NCBI GenBank assembly: GCA_021740995.1
Contig: JAIOYR010000044.1
Span: 1-32,051 of the forward strand
DNA from: Taibaiella sp.
GTDB taxonomy: Bacteria > Bacteroidota > Bacteroidia > Chitinophagales > Chitinophagaceae
DNA length: 32,051 bases
Reading direction: 5' to 3'
Shown piece by piece: positions 7,962 to 20,806 of this stretch. The notes under the pieces were generated by a model, which worked only from the letters and a program-made list of their open reading frames with translations, did not search any database and was not told the origin of the DNA. How positions within the stretch are numbered: position 1 is the stretch's first letter; each line of letters begins with the position of its first letter. The translations under genes were made by a program, and so were the position numbers.

Positions 7962-8552
7962 TCAGATTTTTGCAGCGTCAAAAAGCTCCTTGAGGTCTAT
8001 AGTGAAACCCGGCAATACAGTAGTAGTAACAATATCGCCGGCAGCCATTTGGCGGGAAGTGACGTAACGACCATCTACAAGTGTGTTCATCAGAAAGGTA
8101 TTGTCCTGCGGAGAAATAACCCAGTATTCCTTTACTCCGGCTTCTTCATACACTTCAAATTTGTTTCTAAGCTCCTTCGCGTTATTACCCGGAGAGAGAA
8201 TTTCCACTACAATATCCGGCGCACCTATACAACCTCTGTAGTCAAACTTTGAAGGATCGCAAACCACACACACATCAGGCTGCAGCACCGTTACTATATC
8301 CTTGTCTTCTTTCGATTTTCGGGGTAGCCGCACATCAAATGGCGCTATCATGGCTTTGCAGGGATGCCCCTTTAAAAAATTTCTCAGCAAACCATACAAT
8401 TCCCCTGCTATTGACTGATGAAAATAATTGGGCGTAGGACCCATCCTGAATACTCGTCCTTTTATAAGCTCCACACGCTCTTCAAACTGCCAACTGTAGT
8501 AGTCTGCATAGGTGTACAGCTTATTTATATCCAGGTCATCCAGATTGTACAT
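7962..8552 (-). CDS. Uma2 family protein (PD-(D/E)XK nuclease fold), copy 2
   Basis: 196 residues from the ATG at 8552. Same architecture as the copy at 2296-2880: VELIKGRVFRM, APFDVRLPRKSKEDKDI, LQPDVCVV, RGCIGAPDIVVEILSP and KFEVYEEAGVKEYWV. More than half of the residues are identical by eye over the full length, with differences concentrated in the C-terminal third. The putative active-site residues (E of VEL, D of LQPD, D and E of PDIVVE, the Lys of KFE) are all retained, so it is not visibly decayed. Cellular role is unknown. The gene is probably transcribed alone; I see no -7 consensus directly upstream. Confidence 0.85.
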   Translation of the reverse strand: MYNLDDLDINKLYTYADYYSWQFEERVELIKGRVFRMGPTPNYFHQSIAGELYGLLRNFLKGHPCKAMIAPFDVRLPRKSKEDKDIVTVLQPDVCVVCDPSKFDYRGCIGAPDIVVEILSPGNNAKELRNKFEVYEEAGVKEYWVISPQDNTFLMNTLVDGRYVTSRQMAAGDIVTTTVLPGFTIDLKELFDAAKI

Positions 8553-10705: not shown

Positions 10706-11527
10706 ATGACACTACAGGGCAAAACAGCATTTATCACAGGTGCCAGCCGCGGCATAGGCGAGGCCATAGCACTACGCCTCGCTCGCGAGGGCGCTAACAT
10801 TGTAGTCCTTGGCAAATCCATAAAAGAAGACCCACGCCTCGGCGGAACCATACATACCGTAGCACAAAAAGTAAACGAAGCCGGCGGCAGAGGTCTGGCA
10901 GTGCAGTGCGACATACGCGACGAAGAGCAGGTGCTCAGCGCCGTGCAGCAGGCAATAGCCCTCTTTGGTGGTATAGACATACTCGTCAACAATGCCTCCG
11001 CCATCTCCCTCAGCAACACAGAGCAGACCGACACCAAGCGGTTCGACCTCGTGCACGACATCAACGTCCGAGGCACATTCATCGTTACCAAGCATTGCGT
11101 ACCCTTCCTCCGCAAGGGCACCAACCCACACATCCTCACCCTGTCGCCGCCTATAGATATGAACCCCAAATGGATAGCCCCCTACATAGGCTACACCATG
11201 AGCAAGTACAATATGAGCATGATGACCCTGGCATGGGCCGAAGAATTTAAACAATACGGTATCGCTGCCAACTCGCTCTGGCCCGTTACTACTATAGCCA
11301 CATCCGCAGTGCGCAACATACTGGGTGGCGAAATGCTCATAGCCCGCAGCCGCACACCCCATATAGTAGCGGACGGCGCCTACCACATACTCACCCAACC
11401 CGCCACCACCTGCACCGGCAATCTCTTCCTCGACGAAGACGTGCTCCGCACCGCCGGCATCACCGACCTCACCCCCTATGCCGTAACCCCCGGCGGCCCA
11501 CTACAAAAGGACTTGTATGTGAGTTAG
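10706..11527 (+). CDS. SDR family oxidoreductase, HSDL2-like
   Basis: 273 residues. The Rossmann motif TGASRGIG is at 11-18, NNASAI follows in place of NNAG, and the catalytic YTMSK has Y163 and K167. The stretches LSPPIDMNPKWIAPYIGYTMSKYNMS, AEEFKQYGIAANSLWP and GNLFLDEDVLRTAGI follow the HSDL2-like subgroup (classically an SDR plus SCP2); here the SCP2 domain is absent. It probably acts on a lipid or acyl substrate with NAD(P); the substrate is unknown. The gene is distinctly GC-rich compared with the downstream island. It stands alone, with a weak promoter-like TATCTTCG at 10680-10687. It marks the last ordinary chromosomal gene before the defence island. Confidence 0.88.
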   Translation: MTLQGKTAFITGASRGIGEAIALRLAREGANIVVLGKSIKEDPRLGGTIHTVAQKVNEAGGRGLAVQCDIRDEEQVLSAVQQAIALFGGIDILVNNASAISLSNTEQTDTKRFDLVHDINVRGTFIVTKHCVPFLRKGTNPHILTLSPPIDMNPKWIAPYIGYTMSKYNMSMMTLAWAEEFKQYGIAANSLWPVTTIATSAVRNILGGEMLIARSRTPHIVADGAYHILTQPATTCTGNLFLDEDVLRTAGITDLTPYAVTPGGPLQKDLYVS

Positions 11528-11580
11528 TTTTATTTCAGTATTGCACCAGCTTTAGGGCCACTATCATCGTCCGAAGAGCC

Positions 11581-11624
11581 TGCCCTGAGGAATCGAAGGG
11601 TCACTCCCTTGTACGTTCAGGGCA
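11581..11624. repeat. Nested palindromic element (REP-like)
   Basis: The outer arms TGCCCTGA (11581-11588) and TCAGGGCA (11617-11624) are perfectly complementary. Inside them AAGGG (11596-11600) pairs with CCCTT (11606-11610) around TCACT. The sequence resembles the short CCCTTCGA...CTCAGGG interspersed palindromes seen in many bacterial genomes. It could serve as the terminator of the SDR gene, although no T-run follows. Confidence 0.55.
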
Positions 11625-11830
11625 ATGAGCAGCTTGTTCCATTCGCTGTAGTCATTTTTCGGGTAAGGAGGGCTGCGTGCTAATTCCAAATGGAGAAAAC
11701 TATACAGTCTCCACTTTTCTCAGTGAATTGGAGTAATCCGAAGACAATCCCAAACGGTCAAAATATTGTAAACTCCCTCGGCTTCTATACTTATCATAAA
11801 AAGACGTGTTATAGCATTTAGGAATAGTTC

Positions 11831-11860
11831 TTGTATAAATCACTCTTTTCAATACTTTTG
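11831..11860 (+). promoter_or_regulatory. Promoter of the three-gene defence operon
   Basis: TTG at 11831-11833, exactly 19 bases, then TACTTTTG at 11853-11860. This is a full match to the Bacteroidota -33/-7 architecture and the best promoter in the window. Transcription would start near 11867, giving a leader of about 42 nt, A/T-rich with no Shine-Dalgarno, before the ATG at 11909. No other comparable promoter precedes the next two genes. Confidence 0.65.
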
Positions 11861-11908
11861 AATAACTATATTGTTTCAACCACTATTTTCGGGAAGTATT
11901 AAAAAGCT

Positions 11909-14900
11909 ATGTCCACAAAATTTTTCACAAATGAAGATGAGAATACTTTAATCAATAAAATCGAGGGCATCTTCAAGCATCGCAATATTCACTTTTTCGA
12001 TGCTTTGGTTGGATACTTTAGAGCTTCGGGTTACTTTAGAATCAGGAAGTTTATTGAGAAAACGTCAGAAATAAGAATACTTGTCGGTATCAATATCGAC
12101 AGGATGATATACCATGCCCATCAACAAGGAGTTTTGTTTGATGGAGATATTGAAAGAGCACAGGAAGATTTCTTTCTGGAAATTAAAAAAAACATACAAC
12201 ATGCAGAGTACGATAAGGACGTTGAAGCGGGTATGTTACAACTCATTGAGGATATTGTCACCAGAAAAGTTCAGATAAAAGTTCACCCCAAACAAAACAT
12301 ACATGCCAAAATCTATATTTTTCGGGAGAAGGAAAAGCACAATCATGGCTATGGCGCAGTAATTACCGGATCAAGCAACCTGACAGACGCGGGATTATCA
12401 AAGAACTTTGAATTCAATGTTGAACTTAGAGATAACTCAGATATTGAATTTGCTGCTGAAACGTTCGAAAAACTGTGGGAGGAATCAGTTTCTGTTTCAG
12501 ATGAATATATTGACAAACTTAAAAAAGAGACTTTCTTAAACGATACGTTTACGCCTTATGAGGTTTATCTCAAATTCCTGATAGAGTATTTTGGAAAGAG
12601 CATTGAATTCGACCCAAACTCTGTTACTGATCTTCCCAAAGGATTTAAGAGGTTGTCTTACCAGATAGATGCGGTAAATGACGGCTACTCCAAAATGATG
12701 AAGCATAACGGCTTCTTTTTGGCTGATGTGGTGGGATTAGGTAAAACAATCGTTGCTACCCTGATAGCAAAGAAGTATTTCTATTCCAATGGCTTTCCCA
12801 CTTATAGGTCTAGGACGTTGATTATTGTTCCTCCCGCTTTGAAGGATAACTGGGTGGACACGATAGATAAGTTCCATCTGGACAATGTAGAAGTTATAAC
12901 TAATGGTAGCCTGCATAAAATAACTAACGCCGAGAAATACGACCTCATAATAGTGGATGAGGCGCACAAATTTAGAACTGACACGGCGGGCATGTATAAT
13001 GAGCTACAAAAGATATGCAAGTCACAGACAAAAAAGATTTTGCCGGATGGGAGTAGGGAAAGTAAACGGGTGATCCTTGTTTCCGCGACACCCCTTAATA
13101 ACCGGCCAGAGGACATAGCGAATCAGGTCTATCTATTTCAGGACAGTAAAAGTTCCAGTCTTGAAGTTGGCAATCTACAACACTTTTTCAGGCAGCAAAT
13201 TGATGCATATAAGAGGCTGAAGAATGAGCAGAACTTGAATCTCGTGAAGGAGGGCGTCAAGCGGATTTACGATAAAATAAGAATAAAGGTTATTGAGCCA
13301 CTTACTGTTAGAAGAACAAGAACAGACCTTACTATACATACTCAATATTCTCAGGATCTGATTGAACAGGGTATCACCTTCCCTTCCGTAAAAAAGCCCG
13401 AAAAAATATTGTATAAACTTGACCAGTTTCTCGACGATCTCTATGACAAAACAATTCTTTACTTAAGCCACCCGACCAAAGGGCTAACGTATAACAGGTA
13501 TAAAGCGATTGGAAATCTAAAGCCACACAAGAAAAAGAAGTACCATACACCAGACATGATCTCGGCTCAGTTGGCAAAGATCATGAAAACGTTACTTGTC
13601 AAAAGAATTGACAGTAGCTTCTACGCGTTTAAAATGTCTCTGGAGCGATTTATGAATGCGACCAAAGCTATGGTGACTATGTTTGAAAATGGCAAGATAT
13701 ATATAGCACCCAATCTGCCTGTTTCCGAATACATTAATGCAGGCAGAGAAGAAGAACTGCTGGATCTAATAATTAGTAAGTCTCTTGAAGACCCAACAAT
13801 AGAAATATGCGAGCCGGACGATTTTGAACATGGATTTGAAACTGGCTTAAGAAGAGACTATGAAATTTTAAAGGAGCTAAACGCTGACTGGCAAAAGGTA
13901 AATGACGACCCCAAACTTACTGAGTTTATCTTTTACATCAGGGAGAAGCTGTTCGATAAGAAAATAAATCCTGAACAGAAGCTTGTTGTATTTTCTGAGA
14001 GCAAAGAGACGACAGGCTATTTAGAACGTGAACTAAAAAACGCTATCGATCACAGGATAATAACAGTTGATAGCAAATCAAGAAAGGACAGAATGCCTGC
14101 CATTAAAGCAAACTTTGATGCAAACTATCCGCTAACGGAACAAAAGAATGATTACGACATAATACTCTCTACCGAAGTACTGGCTGAGGGCGTAAACCTG
14201 CATCGGGCGAATATTATTATCAACTACGACACGCCATGGAATTCTACCCGGTTGATGCAGCGTATAGGCAGGGTAAACAGAATAGGTTCCAGGGCGAGCG
14301 AAGTGCATATATTTAACTTCTTCCCTACAGCCAAGGTGAATGACGATATAGAACTGGAGAAAAAAGCTATCATGAAGCTACAGGCGTTTCATGCTGCGCT
14401 TGGTGAAGATAGCCAGGTGTATTCGCCTGATGAAGAGACACAGTCATTCGGAATATTCGACCATGCTATTGAAGAAGAGAAGGATGAGAAACTGGTGTAC
14501 TTGATGCGTATACGAGAGCTTAGGGAAAAAGACCCTGAACTATTTAAGCATATCAAGAATATGCCGCTGAGGGCGAGAGTGGGCCGCAAAAGCAAGATAC
14601 TAAAGGACGGAACAATCAGTTTTATAAGAGATACCAGAAGAGATGCCTTCCTGTATGTGAAAACAGATGGCGATATAGAAGAACTTACTTTTCTGGAGAC
14701 TGTAAAACAATTTGAAGCAAAGCCAGACGAAAAACACATGGTATTGCACGAGCATCACCATGAGCAGGTAAAGAAAGCTATTGAACACTTTACAAATGCC
14801 CTTGAAGAAGAAAAGGCAAAGGACAAGAAAGTGGATGTGACACAGGGGCCTAATGAAAAGAGGGCACTAACATATCTTGATGCATTCATCAACCTTCCGT

Positions 14901-15181
14901 TTATCAATGTACCGGAAAAAGAGCTGATCATGTTAGCTAAAGAGGCTATCAGGAAGGGTAAATTCCAGAACCTGCAACGAGACCTGAACAAACTGCAAAA
15001 AGCAGTAAAAGCAGCACCATTGAAACCTGTGATATTGCTGGAGCGAGTTATAGTCATATTGAAGTCTTACCCACTGGAAAAAGATGAAACTGAAGCAGAA
15101 ACAAAGCATCAGCGATATTTGCCACCGGTAACAAAACTCATCAACCCTGATATTATTATAACCGAAAGCTTTACTATATAG
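11909..15181 (+). CDS. PLD-nuclease/SNF2-family helicase fusion (defence island, gene 1)
   Basis: 1090 residues. The N-terminal part (about 20-200) is a phospholipase D-like nuclease with one HKD half: H132-A-K134, then GSSNLTDAG at 154-162 and NFEFNVE. A DEAH/SNF2 helicase follows, with motif I DVVGLGKT (273-280), motif II DEAH (350-353), motif III SATPLNN (392-398), motif V STEVLAEGVNL and motif VI QRIGRVNRIG from 784. The last roughly 270 residues form a charged helical tail. A single HKD half usually means the nuclease works as a dimer. Proposed role: ATP-driven DNA translocation coupled to cleavage of unmodified DNA. The stop is 2 bases before the methyltransferase start. The order PLD-then-helicase in one chain separates it from DISARM, where DrmC and the helicases are distinct proteins. 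Function is inferred from domains and context. Confidence 0.88.
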   Translation: MSTKFFTNEDENTLINKIEGIFKHRNIHFFDALVGYFRASGYFRIRKFIEKTSEIRILVGINIDRMIYHAHQQGVLFDGDIERAQEDFFLEIKKNIQHAEYDKDVEAGMLQLIEDIVTRKVQIKVHPKQNIHAKIYIFREKEKHNHGYGAVITGSSNLTDAGLSKNFEFNVELRDNSDIEFAAETFEKLWEESVSVSDEYIDKLKKETFLNDTFTPYEVYLKFLIEYFGKSIEFDPNSVTDLPKGFKRLSYQIDAVNDGYSKMMKHNGFFLADVVGLGKTIVATLIAKKYFYSNGFPTYRSRTLIIVPPALKDNWVDTIDKFHLDNVEVITNGSLHKITNAEKYDLIIVDEAHKFRTDTAGMYNELQKICKSQTKKILPDGSRESKRVILVSATPLNNRPEDIANQVYLFQDSKSSSLEVGNLQHFFRQQIDAYKRLKNEQNLNLVKEGVKRIYDKIRIKVIEPLTVRRTRTDLTIHTQYSQDLIEQGITFPSVKKPEKILYKLDQFLDDLYDKTILYLSHPTKGLTYNRYKAIGNLKPHKKKKYHTPDMISAQLAKIMKTLLVKRIDSSFYAFKMSLERFMNATKAMVTMFENGKIYIAPNLPVSEYINAGREEELLDLIISKSLEDPTIEICEPDDFEHGFETGLRRDYEILKELNADWQKVNDDPKLTEFIFYIREKLFDKKINPEQKLVVFSESKETTGYLERELKNAIDHRIITVDSKSRKDRMPAIKANFDANYPLTEQKNDYDIILSTEVLAEGVNLHRANIIINYDTPWNSTRLMQRIGRVNRIGSRASEVHIFNFFPTAKVNDDIELEKKAIMKLQAFHAALGEDSQVYSPDEETQSFGIFDHAIEEEKDEKLVYLMRIRELREKDPELFKHIKNMPLRARVGRKSKILKDGTISFIRDTRRDAFLYVKTDGDIEELTFLETVKQFEAKPDEKHMVLHEHHHEQVKKAIEHFTNALEEEKAKDKKVDVTQGPNEKRALTYLDAFINLPFINVPEKELIMLAKEAIRKGKFQNLQRDLNKLQKAVKAAPLKPVILLERVIVILKSYPLEKDETEAETKHQRYLPPVTKLINPDIIITESFTI

Positions 15182-15183
15182 CC

Positions 15184-18100
15184 ATGAACGAAAAACAACT
15201 GAAGGACATTTTCAAAGGACAATTCGACTTCAATAAATGGAGATCGGTATTGGAATTTGTATTTGGCAAAATAGAGGTGTTTGCACGTCCACAACATGTG
15301 TTTGACGACAGCAACAAAGTAAAGTCAGGCAAGCAATATGGTCGGATAAAACTGAGCGATGACAAGTCTATAGCGCTATTCGATGTTGAGGTGGCAGAGA
15401 GCATAAATATAGAACGCAACAGGCAAGGTTTGCGCGACATTGCGGCAAAGTATATAGATCAGAATATTACGCACGGAGCTATTGTTTTCTACCATTCTAA
15501 GAAGCAATCAAATTACCGGTTTAGCTTCATTGCCAAATGGAGTGACATAGACCTTGATAGTGGAGAACTACAAAAAGGCGAGACACAGAAAAAGAGGTTT
15601 ACTTACTTACTTGGCGAACAACAAAGTGGCGCTACGGCAGCAAAAAGATTGCTGGAGCTTGCAAATAAAAAGCCTTCGATATCAATGAAGGATGTAACCC
15701 ATGCATTCTCAGTAGAAGTGCTTAACAAGGAGTTCTTTAAAAAGTACAAAGAGCATTACGAGAAATTTTGGCGATATATTGATGAGAATAGCGCATATCG
15801 CAAGCTATTTGTAGATAAAAATATCGACGACCAGGATCTGCAAAAAACCATCAGGGATTTTGCAAAGAAGATGCTGGGACGAATAGTTTTTCTTCACTTC
15901 CTTCAGAAAAAGGGTTGGCTTGGTTGCCCTGTGCTCCCTACAAAGAAACAAAACGACGAGATATGGGAAGACGGCGAAAATAACTTTATGTGCAACTTGT
16001 TTGAAGAGTATGCACATCAAGACAAGTTTTATAGTGAATGCCTCACCGAGCTGTTTTACAACACACTCAACCAGCCAGACAGGAAAAACAATGTATTTTC
16101 AGTAACCGGCACACGTGTGCCGTACCTAAACGGGGGCTTGTTTGACAACGACCAGCCAGGTACCGAAAAAATGAATTTTCCCAAAGAGTACTATGGTGAT
16201 TTGTTCGATTTTTTTGCCCAGTACAATTTCACAATAGATGAAAACAGCCCGGATGAGCAGGAAGTGGGTATTGACCCTGAAATGCTTGGGCATATCTTTG
16301 AAAATTTGCTGGAAGAGAACAGGGAAAGAGGTGCGTTCTACACGCCCAAAGAAATAGTGCAGTATATGTGTCAGGAGAGTCTGGTGCAATATCTACATAA
16401 TCACCTGCCTCAGGACGCAGAAGTAGATCCATTTATCAGGGATCAGCAGGTTAGTAGATATCTTAGGGTACGTGAAAATGCAATTAGATTGAATGCACTA
16501 CTCGATGAAGTAAAAGTTTGCGACCCAGCTATTGGCTCAGGCGCGTTTCCCATAGGCATTTTACAGGAGATTTATAAAGCCAAGCTGCATATCTTTCCAT
16601 ACCTGAAAACTATGGAAAATTTTGACCATGGCGAGACAAAGAAGAAGATCATTGAAAATAGCATTTATGGTGTAGATCTGGAGCATGGCGCGGTTGAAAT
16701 AGCTCGGCTCCGGTTTTGGCTGGCATTAGTGGTAGATGAAGATAAACCACACCCACTGCCCAACCTCGACTATAAGATAATGCAAGGTAATAGCCTATTG
16801 GAAAAATTTGAAGGAGTTGACCTGAGTGTTGTTGGTAATAGCAAAAACGATTTGCAGATATATGAGCCCGCAAAAGACTTATTTGGCAATGTAATACAAT
16901 CACAACTGAAGATGACCTTTACCCGTAGCGAGACGGTAGAGGAAATTCAAAACCTGATTAAAAAGTATTTTAATGAACGAAATCCGCTCAAAAAAGCAGA
17001 TAAGAAAAAGCAGATAGAACAAAAGGTACACGAACATATAGATTACAACCTTGAGCTCCGGGAGAACCAACTAAGTCGCTGGATAAATGAAGCTGGGGAT
17101 TTTGACAGAGTTAGTCGTAAAGACAAATCCAGGCTTGAGGAAATGAAAAAAGAGGTCATAACCTTTGAAAAGAAAAGGCGATCCCTCCATAGGATACAGA
17201 AGACGGAAGAGAAACCCTATTTTATCTGGCATCTGTTCTTTAAAGACGTTTTTGATAATGGAGGTTTTGACATTGTAATAGGTAACCCACCCTATATACA
17301 ATTGCAAAAACTTGGCAAAGACACCGATATATTAGAGAGTGAAAAATTCGAAACTTTTGCAAGAAATGGTGACATATTTTGTTTGTTTTATGAACAAGGG
17401 TTCAAAATATTGAAATCTCAAGGAGTTCTGACTTTTATTACTTCAAGTAAATGGATGAAAGGCGGTTATGGAAAGTCCCTTAGGAAATTCCTATTAAAGC
17501 GTAACTCACTAAAATTGATAAATCTCGGTCCAGGGATATTTCAATCTGCCACTGTTGACACTAACATCTATATCGGAAAGAATGAAAGTTCCAAGAATAA
17601 AGCTACAGGTTTGACTTTAGAAGGCACTTTCAACTCAATCGCTCTAGACGAAAGTAATTTCATTGCACTCACTAGTATTAGCGAAGATGCTTGGATTATA
17701 TTGGATATTGAGGAAGCTAAGATTAATGAGGCTTTTACCAAGAAAGGAAAGCCACTTTCCTCTTGGGATGTAAAAATCAATTTCGGAATAAAAACCGGGT
17801 TTAACGAAGCTTATATTATTTCTACTCAAGAAAAGGACGAGCTTTTAAATGAACATTCTGGTTCATCAGAATTAATAAAACCGCTCGCACGAGGCAGAGA
17901 TATTAACAGATACTTGGTTGAACGTTCTGATCAATGGATAATAATTGTGAAATATGGCGCTAATAAGCATCTGAAAAGAGATTATCCGGCGATTTACAAG
18001 CATCTGCTGTACTATCAGGAACAGTTGTCGGCAAGAGGGCAATGTACAAATAGGAATGGCGAAGGCCAGCATCATTGGCTTGAATTAGACAATAATCCGC

Positions 18101-18726
18101 CTGATGCATATCTACTGCAGTTTGCTACGGAAAAGTTAGTGTGGAAAAGGGTTGGATCAATCATGCGCTTCGCTTATTCTGATGAAGAGATGTACTGTCT
18201 GGATAGTACGTGTATTGCAACCGGTGAAAAGATAAAGTATCTTACTGCTATACTCAACTCTAAAGTTGGCTTATATCAGCTGGTGAAAACATCACCCCAA
18301 ACAGGTACCGGCGACCAAATAATAAGTGTGCAGGCGCTGGAACCACTATTGGTTCATTACCCTTCAGATGAAACTGAAGAAAAGTTCAATAGGCTTGTCG
18401 ATATTATTCTTTTCATCAGGAAGTCAAGCAGAAATCTCTTAGATGCCATAACGAACGAAGAACTATCGATGGAATTTGAGAAGATCGTTGACCAAATGGC
18501 TTTCGAATTATATTTTGAGGACCACATGAAAGAAATTGAGATAGACGTGTTGCAATTAGTGAGATTTAAGGACATTAAAGAGATTAAGGGCCAACAGGCT
18601 AAGAAAGACTTTGTGTTGAAACTATATTACGATCTGCAACAAAAGGATAATAAGATAAGAAACCGGATACTTGTTGCTGAAAACAGAAGCTGGATAATAA
18701 AACGCATAAACCAAACATTGAGCTAA
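15184..18726 (+). CDS. Eco57I/TaqI-like adenine-specific DNA methyltransferase with target-recognition domain (gene 2)
   Basis: 1180 residues. The N-terminal 180 residues are mixed alpha/beta (IALFDVEVAESINIERNRQGLRDI, HGAIVFYH) and could be a degenerate nuclease-like fold, but I see no clear D-E-x-K set. A helical linker leads to the N6-adenine methyltransferase core: ERGAFYTPKEIVQYM, motif I DPAIGSGAF (447-455) and motif IV NPPY (701-704). From about 880 the TaqI_C-like recognition domain is visible (FGIKTGFNEAYII, LARGRDINRYL, CLDSTCIATGEKIKYLTAILNS). SAM binding and target recognition are therefore in one chain, as in type IIG and BREX PglX proteins. It probably protects host DNA by m6A at a specific site. 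The start is 2 bases after gene 1 and the stop 3 bases before gene 3. The recognition part is markedly AT-rich. Confidence 0.9.
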   Translation: MNEKQLKDIFKGQFDFNKWRSVLEFVFGKIEVFARPQHVFDDSNKVKSGKQYGRIKLSDDKSIALFDVEVAESINIERNRQGLRDIAAKYIDQNITHGAIVFYHSKKQSNYRFSFIAKWSDIDLDSGELQKGETQKKRFTYLLGEQQSGATAAKRLLELANKKPSISMKDVTHAFSVEVLNKEFFKKYKEHYEKFWRYIDENSAYRKLFVDKNIDDQDLQKTIRDFAKKMLGRIVFLHFLQKKGWLGCPVLPTKKQNDEIWEDGENNFMCNLFEEYAHQDKFYSECLTELFYNTLNQPDRKNNVFSVTGTRVPYLNGGLFDNDQPGTEKMNFPKEYYGDLFDFFAQYNFTIDENSPDEQEVGIDPEMLGHIFENLLEENRERGAFYTPKEIVQYMCQESLVQYLHNHLPQDAEVDPFIRDQQVSRYLRVRENAIRLNALLDEVKVCDPAIGSGAFPIGILQEIYKAKLHIFPYLKTMENFDHGETKKKIIENSIYGVDLEHGAVEIARLRFWLALVVDEDKPHPLPNLDYKIMQGNSLLEKFEGVDLSVVGNSKNDLQIYEPAKDLFGNVIQSQLKMTFTRSETVEEIQNLIKKYFNERNPLKKADKKKQIEQKVHEHIDYNLELRENQLSRWINEAGDFDRVSRKDKSRLEEMKKEVITFEKKRRSLHRIQKTEEKPYFIWHLFFKDVFDNGGFDIVIGNPPYIQLQKLGKDTDILESEKFETFARNGDIFCLFYEQGFKILKSQGVLTFITSSKWMKGGYGKSLRKFLLKRNSLKLINLGPGIFQSATVDTNIYIGKNESSKNKATGLTLEGTFNSIALDESNFIALTSISEDAWIILDIEEAKINEAFTKKGKPLSSWDVKINFGIKTGFNEAYIISTQEKDELLNEHSGSSELIKPLARGRDINRYLVERSDQWIIIVKYGANKHLKRDYPAIYKHLLYYQEQLSARGQCTNRNGEGQHHWLELDNNPPDAYLLQFATEKLVWKRVGSIMRFAYSDEEMYCLDSTCIATGEKIKYLTAILNSKVGLYQLVKTSPQTGTGDQIISVQALEPLLVHYPSDETEEKFNRLVDIILFIRKSSRNLLDAITNEELSMEFEKIVDQMAFELYFEDHMKEIEIDVLQLVRFKDIKEIKGQQAKKDFVLKLYYDLQQKDNKIRNRILVAENRSWIIKRINQTLS

Positions 18727-18729
18727 ACC

Positions 18730-20316
18730 ATGAAAATAAAAGCCCTTCACATCAATAATTTTAAATTCTTTCCCAGGCAGGATCCTGATAGTCCGCTTCT
18801 AAGAATAAATGGTAAGAACCTCCTTATCTATGGTGAAAACGGAAGTGGTAAATCAACTATTTACTGGGCCTTGTATACGCTGCTGGAAAGTGCGTTTAAA
18901 GGCAGCAATGCAAAAGTTGAAAAGTATTTTGTAAGAGGCGAAAGCAGCCTTGTTAATATTTATGCTGGTAGAAATCCTAATGCGCATATAAAGGTTGTGT
19001 TAGATGATGCAGGTGCTACCGAGTATCTTGTGTCCGGAGTTGACGCGGAAATAACAACAATTAGAGCGAATGCAGCTATTCGGGAAAGCGGTATGGCATC
19101 TGATTTCATTAACTATAGAGTGTTATTCAGACTGCATCATGCAAAACATACAAGTGATAACAATCTTTTTGAGTGGTTTGAAGGTGACATTTTGCCCTAT
19201 ATTCGAACAAGTGGCGGAAACACTTTTTTAGAGTTGCTCGATGATATCCGCAAAGGACCACATAAAGTTCAGGATCTGTTAGGAAATGAAATCTATTCCA
19301 ACGCGTCAATGTTGAATGACCCAGATCCTGGAATGAGGCAAAATTATCGTTATTACAGCCAATGGGTAAAAAGAGTAGCCAGGTGGAAAAAGGAGCTAAG
19401 TAGATTTCTCGGATTAATCAATGTTAGAGCAAATGAAATACTTGACGTAGACTTCAAGCAAAAAATAGAACTTAAGATAGAATTGATAGCTCCCCAGTAC
19501 AATGTGTTAGCAAGCCCAATTGACCCTTTAAAGCCGCTTGATAATCTAAGATGGGTAGAGCCGGAAATACGAATCATCACCTCTAAATACGATGGCAAAA
19601 AAAATGTTGTGAAGAGGGCGCATTCTTTTTTGAATGAAGCGAAATGGACGGCAATTGGGCTGTCAATAAGATTGGCTATCTTGGAAGATACAGTTTATCG
19701 ACCTAACCCTGTTCAGCTTAAGTGCCTTATTCTAGATGATATGCTTTTAAGCTTAGATATGGGTAATCGTGATATCGTTCTAAACTTGCTTCTTGATCGA
19801 TATGTTCAAGACTACCAAATGATATTAATGACGCATGATAGATATTTCTTTGAGCTGGCGAAAGGCAAAATTAATGCAAGAAATGTGGGAAATAATTGGC
19901 TTAAATTGGAAATGTATGAAGATGTAAAAGGCGGCAAACCACAACCATTCATACTTGAATCAAAGACTAATCTGGAAAAAGCGGATTCATTTTTTAGGCA
20001 AAAGGAATTTGCAGCTGCAGCAAACTTCATGAGGAAAGCTACCGAGTGTTTTGTTAGCGAATTTTTGCCCAAACGTAACCAATACGACGGGAACTTTAAA
20101 CAGCTCGACTTAAGTAAGCTGATAAATAGATCTCGAGCTCTTGCAAGGGCTTCCGGATGGCCGGCTCAAATTATTTCAGACTTAGATTTAATGCGTACTA
20201 ACATTTTCAATCCTGGATCGCACTACGATGTCTATACCCCGGTTTTTCAAAATGATTTAAAAAGGGCTATTGAAACATTGAAAGATGTAGCAGTTCGTTC
20301 AGGAATTAATCTCTAA
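18730..20316 (+). CDS. SMC/RecF-like ABC ATPase with HEPN-like C-terminal extension (gene 3)
   Basis: 528 residues. The N-terminus MKIKALHINNFKFF plus Walker A GENGSGKST (35-43) is the SMC/RecF/AAA_23 pattern. The degenerate signature is in FLNEAKWTAIGLSIRLA (K305-S312), Walker B in LILDDMLLSLD (D336, D337) and the H-loop THD at 368-370. The coiled-coil arm is short, so this is not a structural SMC. After about residue 395 comes a helical module (ADSFFRQKEFAAAANFMRKATECFV...). It ends in R489-TNIFNPGSH498-YD, reminiscent of HEPN-like tails attached to defence ATPases, although the R-to-H spacing is longer than the usual HEPN RNase motif. It may sense DNA ends or control the nuclease; a toxic RNase role is possible but unproven. 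It is the last gene of the operon. Confidence 0.85.
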   Translation: MKIKALHINNFKFFPRQDPDSPLLRINGKNLLIYGENGSGKSTIYWALYTLLESAFKGSNAKVEKYFVRGESSLVNIYAGRNPNAHIKVVLDDAGATEYLVSGVDAEITTIRANAAIRESGMASDFINYRVLFRLHHAKHTSDNNLFEWFEGDILPYIRTSGGNTFLELLDDIRKGPHKVQDLLGNEIYSNASMLNDPDPGMRQNYRYYSQWVKRVARWKKELSRFLGLINVRANEILDVDFKQKIELKIELIAPQYNVLASPIDPLKPLDNLRWVEPEIRIITSKYDGKKNVVKRAHSFLNEAKWTAIGLSIRLAILEDTVYRPNPVQLKCLILDDMLLSLDMGNRDIVLNLLLDRYVQDYQMILMTHDRYFFELAKGKINARNVGNNWLKLEMYEDVKGGKPQPFILESKTNLEKADSFFRQKEFAAAANFMRKATECFVSEFLPKRNQYDGNFKQLDLSKLINRSRALARASGWPAQIISDLDLMRTNIFNPGSHYDVYTPVFQNDLKRAIETLKDVAVRSGINL

Positions 20317-20806
20317 TTACCGCGGAAAAGATGGAAAATATACAGTACATAATGATTACGAAGTTGAAGGGGAACTGGGATAAATTCTGGACTCTCGTTC
20401 ATAACGCCCAAAGTACCCTGTGTGGCACTAGTCTTTTGGACCTGCGACTCCCCTATCAAAAAACCCTCCAAAAAAATTCTTTCCCGACCTACCCTTTTCG
20501 GCATGAATTTTGTGGCATTATACAGTACGTTTTGGCACAGCGCTATTCTTTTCGCAGAGCGTCAGGCAGAAACAGTTTTTTTCTTAAAAGTCGGACGTGT
20601 CCGCCGAAGCGATAGCGAAGGAGGAAATTTCCCTCATAACCCTTACTGGTATTGGCATACAGCCTGCTTCCGGTTTTCGCAAAGTCGGCAAAAGTCGGAA
20701 ATAAAACAGTAAAAATGTGAAACTCCGCCTACAGTCAAAGTGCTAAAAAATACTGCCAGCGGTGTCACAGATGCTAAGAAGTGACAACTTTTTAGCGCGT
20801 CACAAA

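Follow-up and report, generated by a model that had tools for sequence, protein, structure and literature searches.

A restriction-modification-like operon of Taibaiella sp. pairing a PLD-SNF2 helicase and an adenine methyltransferase with an ABC ATPase that carries a predicted HEPN-like domain

A stretch of 32,051 nucleotides from Taibaiella sp. (contig JAIOYR010000044.1 of assembly GCA_021740995.1), called the window here, contains three open reading frames (ORFs) on the + strand, located at 11909-15181 (gene 1, a PLD-SNF2 helicase of 1090 amino acids, aa), 15184-18726 (gene 2, an adenine methyltransferase with a target recognition domain, 1180 aa) and 18730-20316 (gene 3, an ABC ATPase with a C-terminal HEPN-like domain, 528 aa). 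The gaps between them are 2 base pairs (bp) and 3 bp, exactly as an earlier reading of the letters alone (the original prediction) had given them. Architecture, conservation and gene order of the trio were observed across its relatives, together with an association between the methyltransferase tail and the ATPase and a map of co-variation. Within the scope of the searches, and judged by sequence, the trio is real and widespread and is not, as a whole, one named system; it appears to be a conserved DNA-modification operon, probably for defence.

Gene 1 begins with an NgoFVII-like PLD nuclease domain (residues 1-200, 11909..12508), in which the Pfam families PLDc_2 and RE_NgoFVII cover residues 82-190 and 115-198, and the codons of its HxK motif are located at 12302-12310. 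It is followed by an SNF2/SF2 helicase core (residues about 241-810, 12629..14338) with the motifs GLGKT, DEAH and QRIGR, SNF2-rel_dom at 251-330 and Helicase_C at 685-793. PLDc_2, SNF2-rel_dom and Helicase_C are all above the Pfam cut-off. The motifs correspond to residues 132-134 (HAK), 154-157 (GSSN), 276-280 (GLGKT) and 350-353 (DEAH), and their columns are almost invariant among homologues: H132 in 76/77, K134 in 77/77, N157 in 76/77 and E168 in 77/77 for the PLD part, G276-x-G278-K279 and D350-E351-x-H353 each in 78/78 for the helicase part. The best PADLOC model is PDLC01075 ('C3a139 HKD+Snf2', 148 bits), while DrmD scores 130 bits and HmaA 105 bits; PDLC01075 also matches in 11 of 14 control genomes. 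Gene 1 is presumed to be the restriction subunit, which combines nuclease and translocase.

Gene 2 contains Eco57I (residues 492-779), N6_Mtase (686-804) and TaqI_C (900-1029), all above the Pfam cut-off, the last being the target recognition domain (TRD, 17881..18270). Its motifs DPAIGSGAF (447-455) and NPPY (701-704), like H132/K134 and DEAH of gene 1, bear out the original prediction and are conserved in homologues, with D447-P448 and P702-P703 in 82/82 and N701 in 81/82 sequences. By these columns, the conservation of the active sites in genes 1 and 2 exceeds chance. In front of the catalytic domain there is an N-terminal domain (residues 1-180, 15184..15723), and at the other end a C-terminal tail (residues about 1100-1180, 18481..18723), which is a putative docking element for the ATPase, suggested by its co-presence with the latter. 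Column conservation in up to 68 aligned sequences revealed no conserved acid/lysine nuclease triad in residues 1-180: the E69 column is 41% E and the D59 column 66% D, which is not PD-(D/E)xK-like. For this reason, the label "type IIG-like" of the original prediction fits only the methyltransferase and recognition parts, and the PLD domain of gene 1 is the most likely seat of DNA cleavage. PADLOC assigns gene 2 to REase_MTase_IIG with 514 bits and to DrmMI with 119 bits; no PADLOC family fits the trio whole, in line with the earlier remark that no named system has it, and strong scores are confined to gene 2, so that it is probably the sole gene to which automatic tools would give a name.

Gene 3 has a Walker A motif (GENGSGKST) at residues 35-43; AAA_23 is above the Pfam cut-off, SMC_N is marginally under its own, DUF499 is not found, and PADLOC gives at most 40 bits. 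The head resembles Rad50, SMC and RecF, and the protein, which we infer to be a dimer, is predicted to consist of a Rad50/RecF-type ABC head and a HEPN-like C-terminal domain (residues 414-524, 19969..20301) with R435, E439, S497 and H498. The AlphaFold2 (AF2) model of this domain has a pLDDT of 86.2, and among the top 25 PDB matches listed for it, 16 are by title HEPN (7), Csm6 (7) or MntA-HepT (2) proteins, while 7bxo and 5yep in the same list are taken by us to be further MntA-HepT-type pairs. Csm6 and HepT belong to the HEPN RNases. Across 57 aligned C-terminal domains, no residues but those of Arg-x3-Glu and a His further on are invariant; within residues 405-528, the columns conserved to at least 93% are R435 (93/93), E439 (92/93), H498 (88/88, five rows having no aligned residue), N494 (84/88), S497 (82/88) and A418 (88/93). 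The order Arg/Glu/His matches the anticodon-nuclease triad of PrrC and RloC. The HEPN motif Rx4-6H is absent, R435 and H498 being 63 positions apart, with N494 and S497 as the conserved residues preceding H498; the Glu-His spacing is 58 in the window protein and mostly 56-66 in relatives. Pfam HEPN matches the C-terminus of one relative with an E of 3.6e-4, its 21.1 bits lying slightly under the cut-off of 22. When the HEPN-like profile was run against PDB sequences, no family reached significance (the best E was 0.008, for designed or coiled-coil proteins). A CXXC zinc hook was found in 0/93 sequences. Many relatives (P0034, P0065, P0076 and others) are about 600-650 aa long and have an extra domain C-terminal to the HEPN-like one. 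In summary, the "SMC-like ATPase" of the original prediction is more than a bare motor: the HEPN-like part, which was overlooked together with the methyltransferase tail, points with its PrrC/RloC-type triad to a guard or effector.

The distribution was examined from both ends of the operon. In a scan with the gene 3 alignment, one genome per species, the best 80 of 205 relatives were kept, and 49 of these 80 ATPase-selected loci contain the three families in order, which upholds the expected conserved operon; 20 are without the trio although 6.9 kb or more of upstream sequence is there, and in the other 11 the upstream sequence is shorter. Named hosts belong to Bacteroidota, Ignavibacteriota, Chlorobiota, Campylobacterota, Planctomycetota, Fusobacteriota, Pseudomonadota, Thermodesulfobacteriota, Latescibacterota and others, many records being metagenome bins whose names may err. 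Among the 395 genomes examined from the window's phylum, 32 contain gene 1 at E 1e-60, and 31 helicase-selected regions were taken, leaving out the window's own and a second partial match in G588. A methyltransferase is located downstream of the helicase in 29 of the 31, partial ones included (some at contig ends); of the remaining two, the helicase of L117 ends at the contig end and L122 has no methyltransferase. In 26 assessable regions the contig includes the 3' end of the methyltransferase and continues past it (by just 357 bp in L096), L118 being left out as its contig stops 145 bp later. Gene 3 comes next in 9 of them (2 broken and 7 intact, one of the latter 624 bp away); the other 17 lack it. 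Because of these 17, the core is the pair of helicase and Eco57I/TaqI_C methyltransferase, and gene 3 is optional. That is to say, the co-occurrence proposed at first holds when the ATPase is the starting point and not from the helicase side, and the idea of a fixed minimal DISARM/ISP-like trio does not hold. The genome search with the ATPase alignment found it in at least 13 of 395 genomes (the best three candidates per genome were scored), a figure not used as a count. L106 and L115, copies of L020 and L080, were left out of the conservation, tail-association and co-variation counts and kept in the helicase-selected tally, and L003 and L092, which are identical, were counted once among the distinct ATPase ORFs. 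In the plasmid search, relatives of gene 1 occur in 110 records, 5 of which cover at least 80%, and those of gene 3 in 2 records only. Prevotella sp. oral taxon 299 bears the trio on NC_022111.1 (L090), a record filed as a 1.77 Mb plasmid, where a gene that looks Schlafen-like by eye sits between helicase and methyltransferase. Accessory genes stand among the three in some loci, such as Schlafen AlbA_2, KilA-N, DUF1016/YhcG nuclease, Fic, DUF3800 and GmrSD-HNH.

The co-variation was measured as correlation of pairwise protein distances in 47 loci (the window and 46 others, tandem-copy loci left out, 820 usable pairs). The distances of the methyltransferase N-terminus follow those of the helicase with r 0.94 (partial 0.86; equalled or exceeded in 0/500 permutations), and the partial value is still 0.84 in the 15 loci without gene 3 (91 pairs). 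At the other end, the tail follows the ATPase head with r 0.80 and partial 0.54, or partial 0.58 when the TRD is added to the controls (0/2000 permutations). Between the N-terminus and the ATPase head the raw value of 0.75 falls to a partial of only 0.13. The TRD region (model columns 841-1085) gives r 0.11 with the helicase and 0.20 with the ATPase head (partial 0.06). These low values beside the high ones of both ends indicate that the TRD diverges largely separately from helicase and ATPase, while each end of gene 2 tracks its own neighbour.

Among 82 methyltransferases, tail and ATPase are both present in 62 and both absent in 19, with the tail alone in 1 and the ATPase alone in 0. The methyltransferase tree provides 8 independent supported pairs, of which a mean of 7.9 agree with the link (sign test, median p 0.0078), and its supported branches force at least 8 gains or losses of the trait. 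The helicase-selected regions alone give both in 9, neither in 16, tail only in 1 and ATPase only in 0 (Fisher p 3e-6, relatedness ignored). Conversely, a tail precedes 89 of 93 distinct ATPase ORFs; of the other four, 2 are truncated where the contig begins and 2 are without a tail. The tail is also seen on non-homologous proteins adjoining the ATPase: relatives of gene 3 follow 3' of TIR-TPR-TRD and TPR-TRD proteins, with no gene 1 relative in the stretch examined. Adjacent genes of tail carrier and ATPase overlap by 4 bp in 35 of 82 pairs and are probably translationally coupled, and the tail with the ABC-HEPN protein looks like a portable module by these arrangements.

Several single loci add to this picture of the pair. 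In L104 (6750-15385), a tail-bearing methyltransferase has downstream of it two unassigned genes, then one SIR2-like and one HerA-like gene, in place of the ABC-HEPN gene, and these are possibly a replacement effector. Tandem cassettes of methyltransferase (or its fragment) and ATPase are present in L032, L033, L069 and L087, the last of which has one further methyltransferase with neither tail nor adjoining ATPase. Broken ATPase remnants occur in L113, L116, L126 and L124, all from genomes of the window's phylum under genus code g187; in the first three, the neighbouring tail is intact.

DISARM is marked by DrmA and DrmB (and DrmC), and BREX by PglZ and BrxC; none of these was found among the 15 window ORFs (5 scanned with PADLOC and Pfam, 10 with Pfam), which agrees, for these ORFs, with the absence of PglZ and DrmA/B noted earlier. 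RloC has Arg-X3-Glu-X36-52-His, often with Ser before the His, reminiscent of the PrrC triad; Ala mutants of the RloC triad are inactive, and PrrC has a genetic linkage to a restriction-modification (RM) system, EcoprrI of type Ic, which keeps it silent (PMC2610378). Gene 3 is similar in that ABC ATPase motifs are followed by a C-terminal domain with Arg-x3-Glu...(Ser)-His, but its Glu-His spacing is longer (58, against 36-52 in RloC and 31, by residue numbers, in PrrC), the zinc hook of RloC is missing in all 93 sequences, the partner is not a type Ic RM system but a PLD-SNF2 helicase with an Eco57I/TaqI_C methyltransferase, and there is a dedicated tail on the methyltransferase. In our reading the trio may work like PrrC-EcoprrI, yet by spacing, zinc hook and RM partner it falls outside PrrC/RloC.

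ABC-HEPN proteins near RM genes have been known as a class since 2013, and the PrrC/RloC/APECO1_4465 group is often found in RM operons beside RhuM-like or Fic/Doc genes (PMC3710099). The survey proteins APECO1_4465 and ERFG_01251 resemble gene 3 in joining an ABC ATPase to a C-terminal domain, HEPN in them and predicted HEPN-like here, whereas the accessible text of that survey describes neither a tail-bearing partner nor a PLD-SNF2 and Eco57I core (PMC3710099). The Hma or BREX-related (BR) type-2 systems also combine helicase, methylase and ATPase, their helicases having an N-terminal HKD nuclease and an N6-methyltransferase as partner (PMC12839542), while HmaB is predicted to be m5C in the PADLOC paper (PMC8565338). 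Membership of Hma, raised by the HmaA match of gene 1, was rejected since HmaC is a DUF499 ATPase. PbeABCD and the CxC systems have an HKD nuclease-SF2 helicase fusion and an ABC ATPase, some with methylases, but own a zinc-hook CxC ATPase, a DndE partner and cytosine methylases (PMC10853773), unlike the adenine methyltransferase and HEPN-like domain here, and were rejected on the missing CXXC. DISARM class 1 (DrmD, DrmMI) and ARMADA (ArmA, ArmB) pair an SNF2 helicase with a PglX/YeeA-like methyltransferase (PMC12458937); here none of YprA-like, DrmA and DrmB proteins is seen, the nuclease is fused to the helicase and an ABC-HEPN protein is added. Type IIG RM enzymes have methyltransferase and recognition domain in one chain as gene 2 does, whereas here the helicase-nuclease is a separate protein and the N-terminus shows no conserved nuclease motif. 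MADS was set aside, the mad3 match being weak (39 bits) and the literature search showing nothing relevant among the matches listed. The literature searched, with most subscription papers outside it, yielded in its accessible text no description of the trio, the tail or the tail-ABC-HEPN pairing.

As for expression, the "one consensus promoter" claimed at first was not recovered: a sigma-70 scan of 11400-20800 listed no + strand site upstream of 12054, and its 16 sites in total are fewer than the mean of 22.8 in shuffles. The Bacteroidota-type -7 promoter consensus is TAnnTTTG, and one candidate -7 box, TACTTTTG at 11853-11860 (+ strand), matches this pattern only; it is weak because the + strand of the window has such a pattern roughly every 2 kb. 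The flanking genes are mostly of housekeeping type by Pfam, with SMC, NAD synthase and short-chain dehydrogenase on one side and thioesterase, RuvA and SprA on the other. An empty-site test for horizontal gain found the upstream dehydrogenase and downstream RuvA genes non-adjacent in the family genomes searched. Two putative Uma2-family endonuclease genes are located at 2254-2877 and 7965-8552.

On the whole, it is rather probable that the operon is an RM core to whose methyltransferase tail a PrrC-like RNase guard is docked; for this machine we infer the activities, contacts, trigger and RNA target as follows. Gene 2 would be the scaffold: its Eco57I-type domain would methylate adenine at a site set by the exchangeable TaqI-like recognition domain, its N-terminal domain would couple to gene 1 and its tail to gene 3. 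At unmodified target sites the SNF2 motor of gene 1 would translocate DNA and the PLD nuclease would cut it. The guard, with its Rad50/RecF-like ABC ATPase and HEPN-like RNase domain, would be kept silent on the tail and be freed or activated upon inhibition or overload of the machine or upon abnormal DNA; it would then cut RNA, possibly tRNA as PrrC and RloC do, and halt the infected cell.

The TRD is not fully free, its correlation with the catalytic domain being 0.38, and 0.72 in loci without gene 3; the co-variation of the gene 2 ends with their neighbours may be explained by contact, but linked inheritance with recombination in the middle of the gene could be another explanation. It is possible, though the smaller chance, that genes 1 and 2 make up the complete system, and that gene 3 and the tail are a cassette apart, of the toxin-antitoxin-like addiction or Abi kind, with the tail as an antitoxin fused to the upstream protein, as suggested by the repeated gain or loss, the occurrence of the pair on unrelated platforms and the probable translational coupling. 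However, all scanned tail carriers are a methyltransferase, a TaqI_C recognition protein or another defence-type protein, and the only free tails the size of an antitoxin were contig-end pieces or a remnant (L048, L036, L125). That gene 3 encodes an ATPase for DNA sensing or loading, which activates or targets the restriction of gene 1 and whose helical domain binds partners or nucleic acid without being an RNase, seems doubtful: its head resembles the DNA-acting Rad50, SMC and RecF, its family shares an operon with a translocase-nuclease, and some HEPN domains lack the active-site motif and are probably non-catalytic (PMC3710099), but the near-complete conservation of Arg-x3-Glu and Ser-His looks catalytic, gene 3 is missing beside most of the assessable core pairs, and it also stands behind the TIR-TPR-TRD and TPR-TRD proteins. 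Shared inheritance and linkage alone, with neither contact nor common function, are an unlikely cause of the tail-ATPase association, for although the two lie side by side and the trait forms clusters in the tree of the methyltransferases, the independent contrasts nearly all agree, the tail recurs on non-homologous proteins beside the ATPase, and no ATPase adjoins a tail-less methyltransferase (n=82). Finally, it is very improbable that gene 2 works by itself as an ordinary type IIG enzyme and has incidental neighbours, since its 514-bit PADLOC match is opposed by the adjoining helicase in 29 of 31 regions, the lack of PD-(D/E)xK-like conservation in residues 1-180 and the co-variation of this N-terminus with the helicase.

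If the reading of an RM core with a docked RNase guard is true, gene 3 would be a last-resort switch against viruses.

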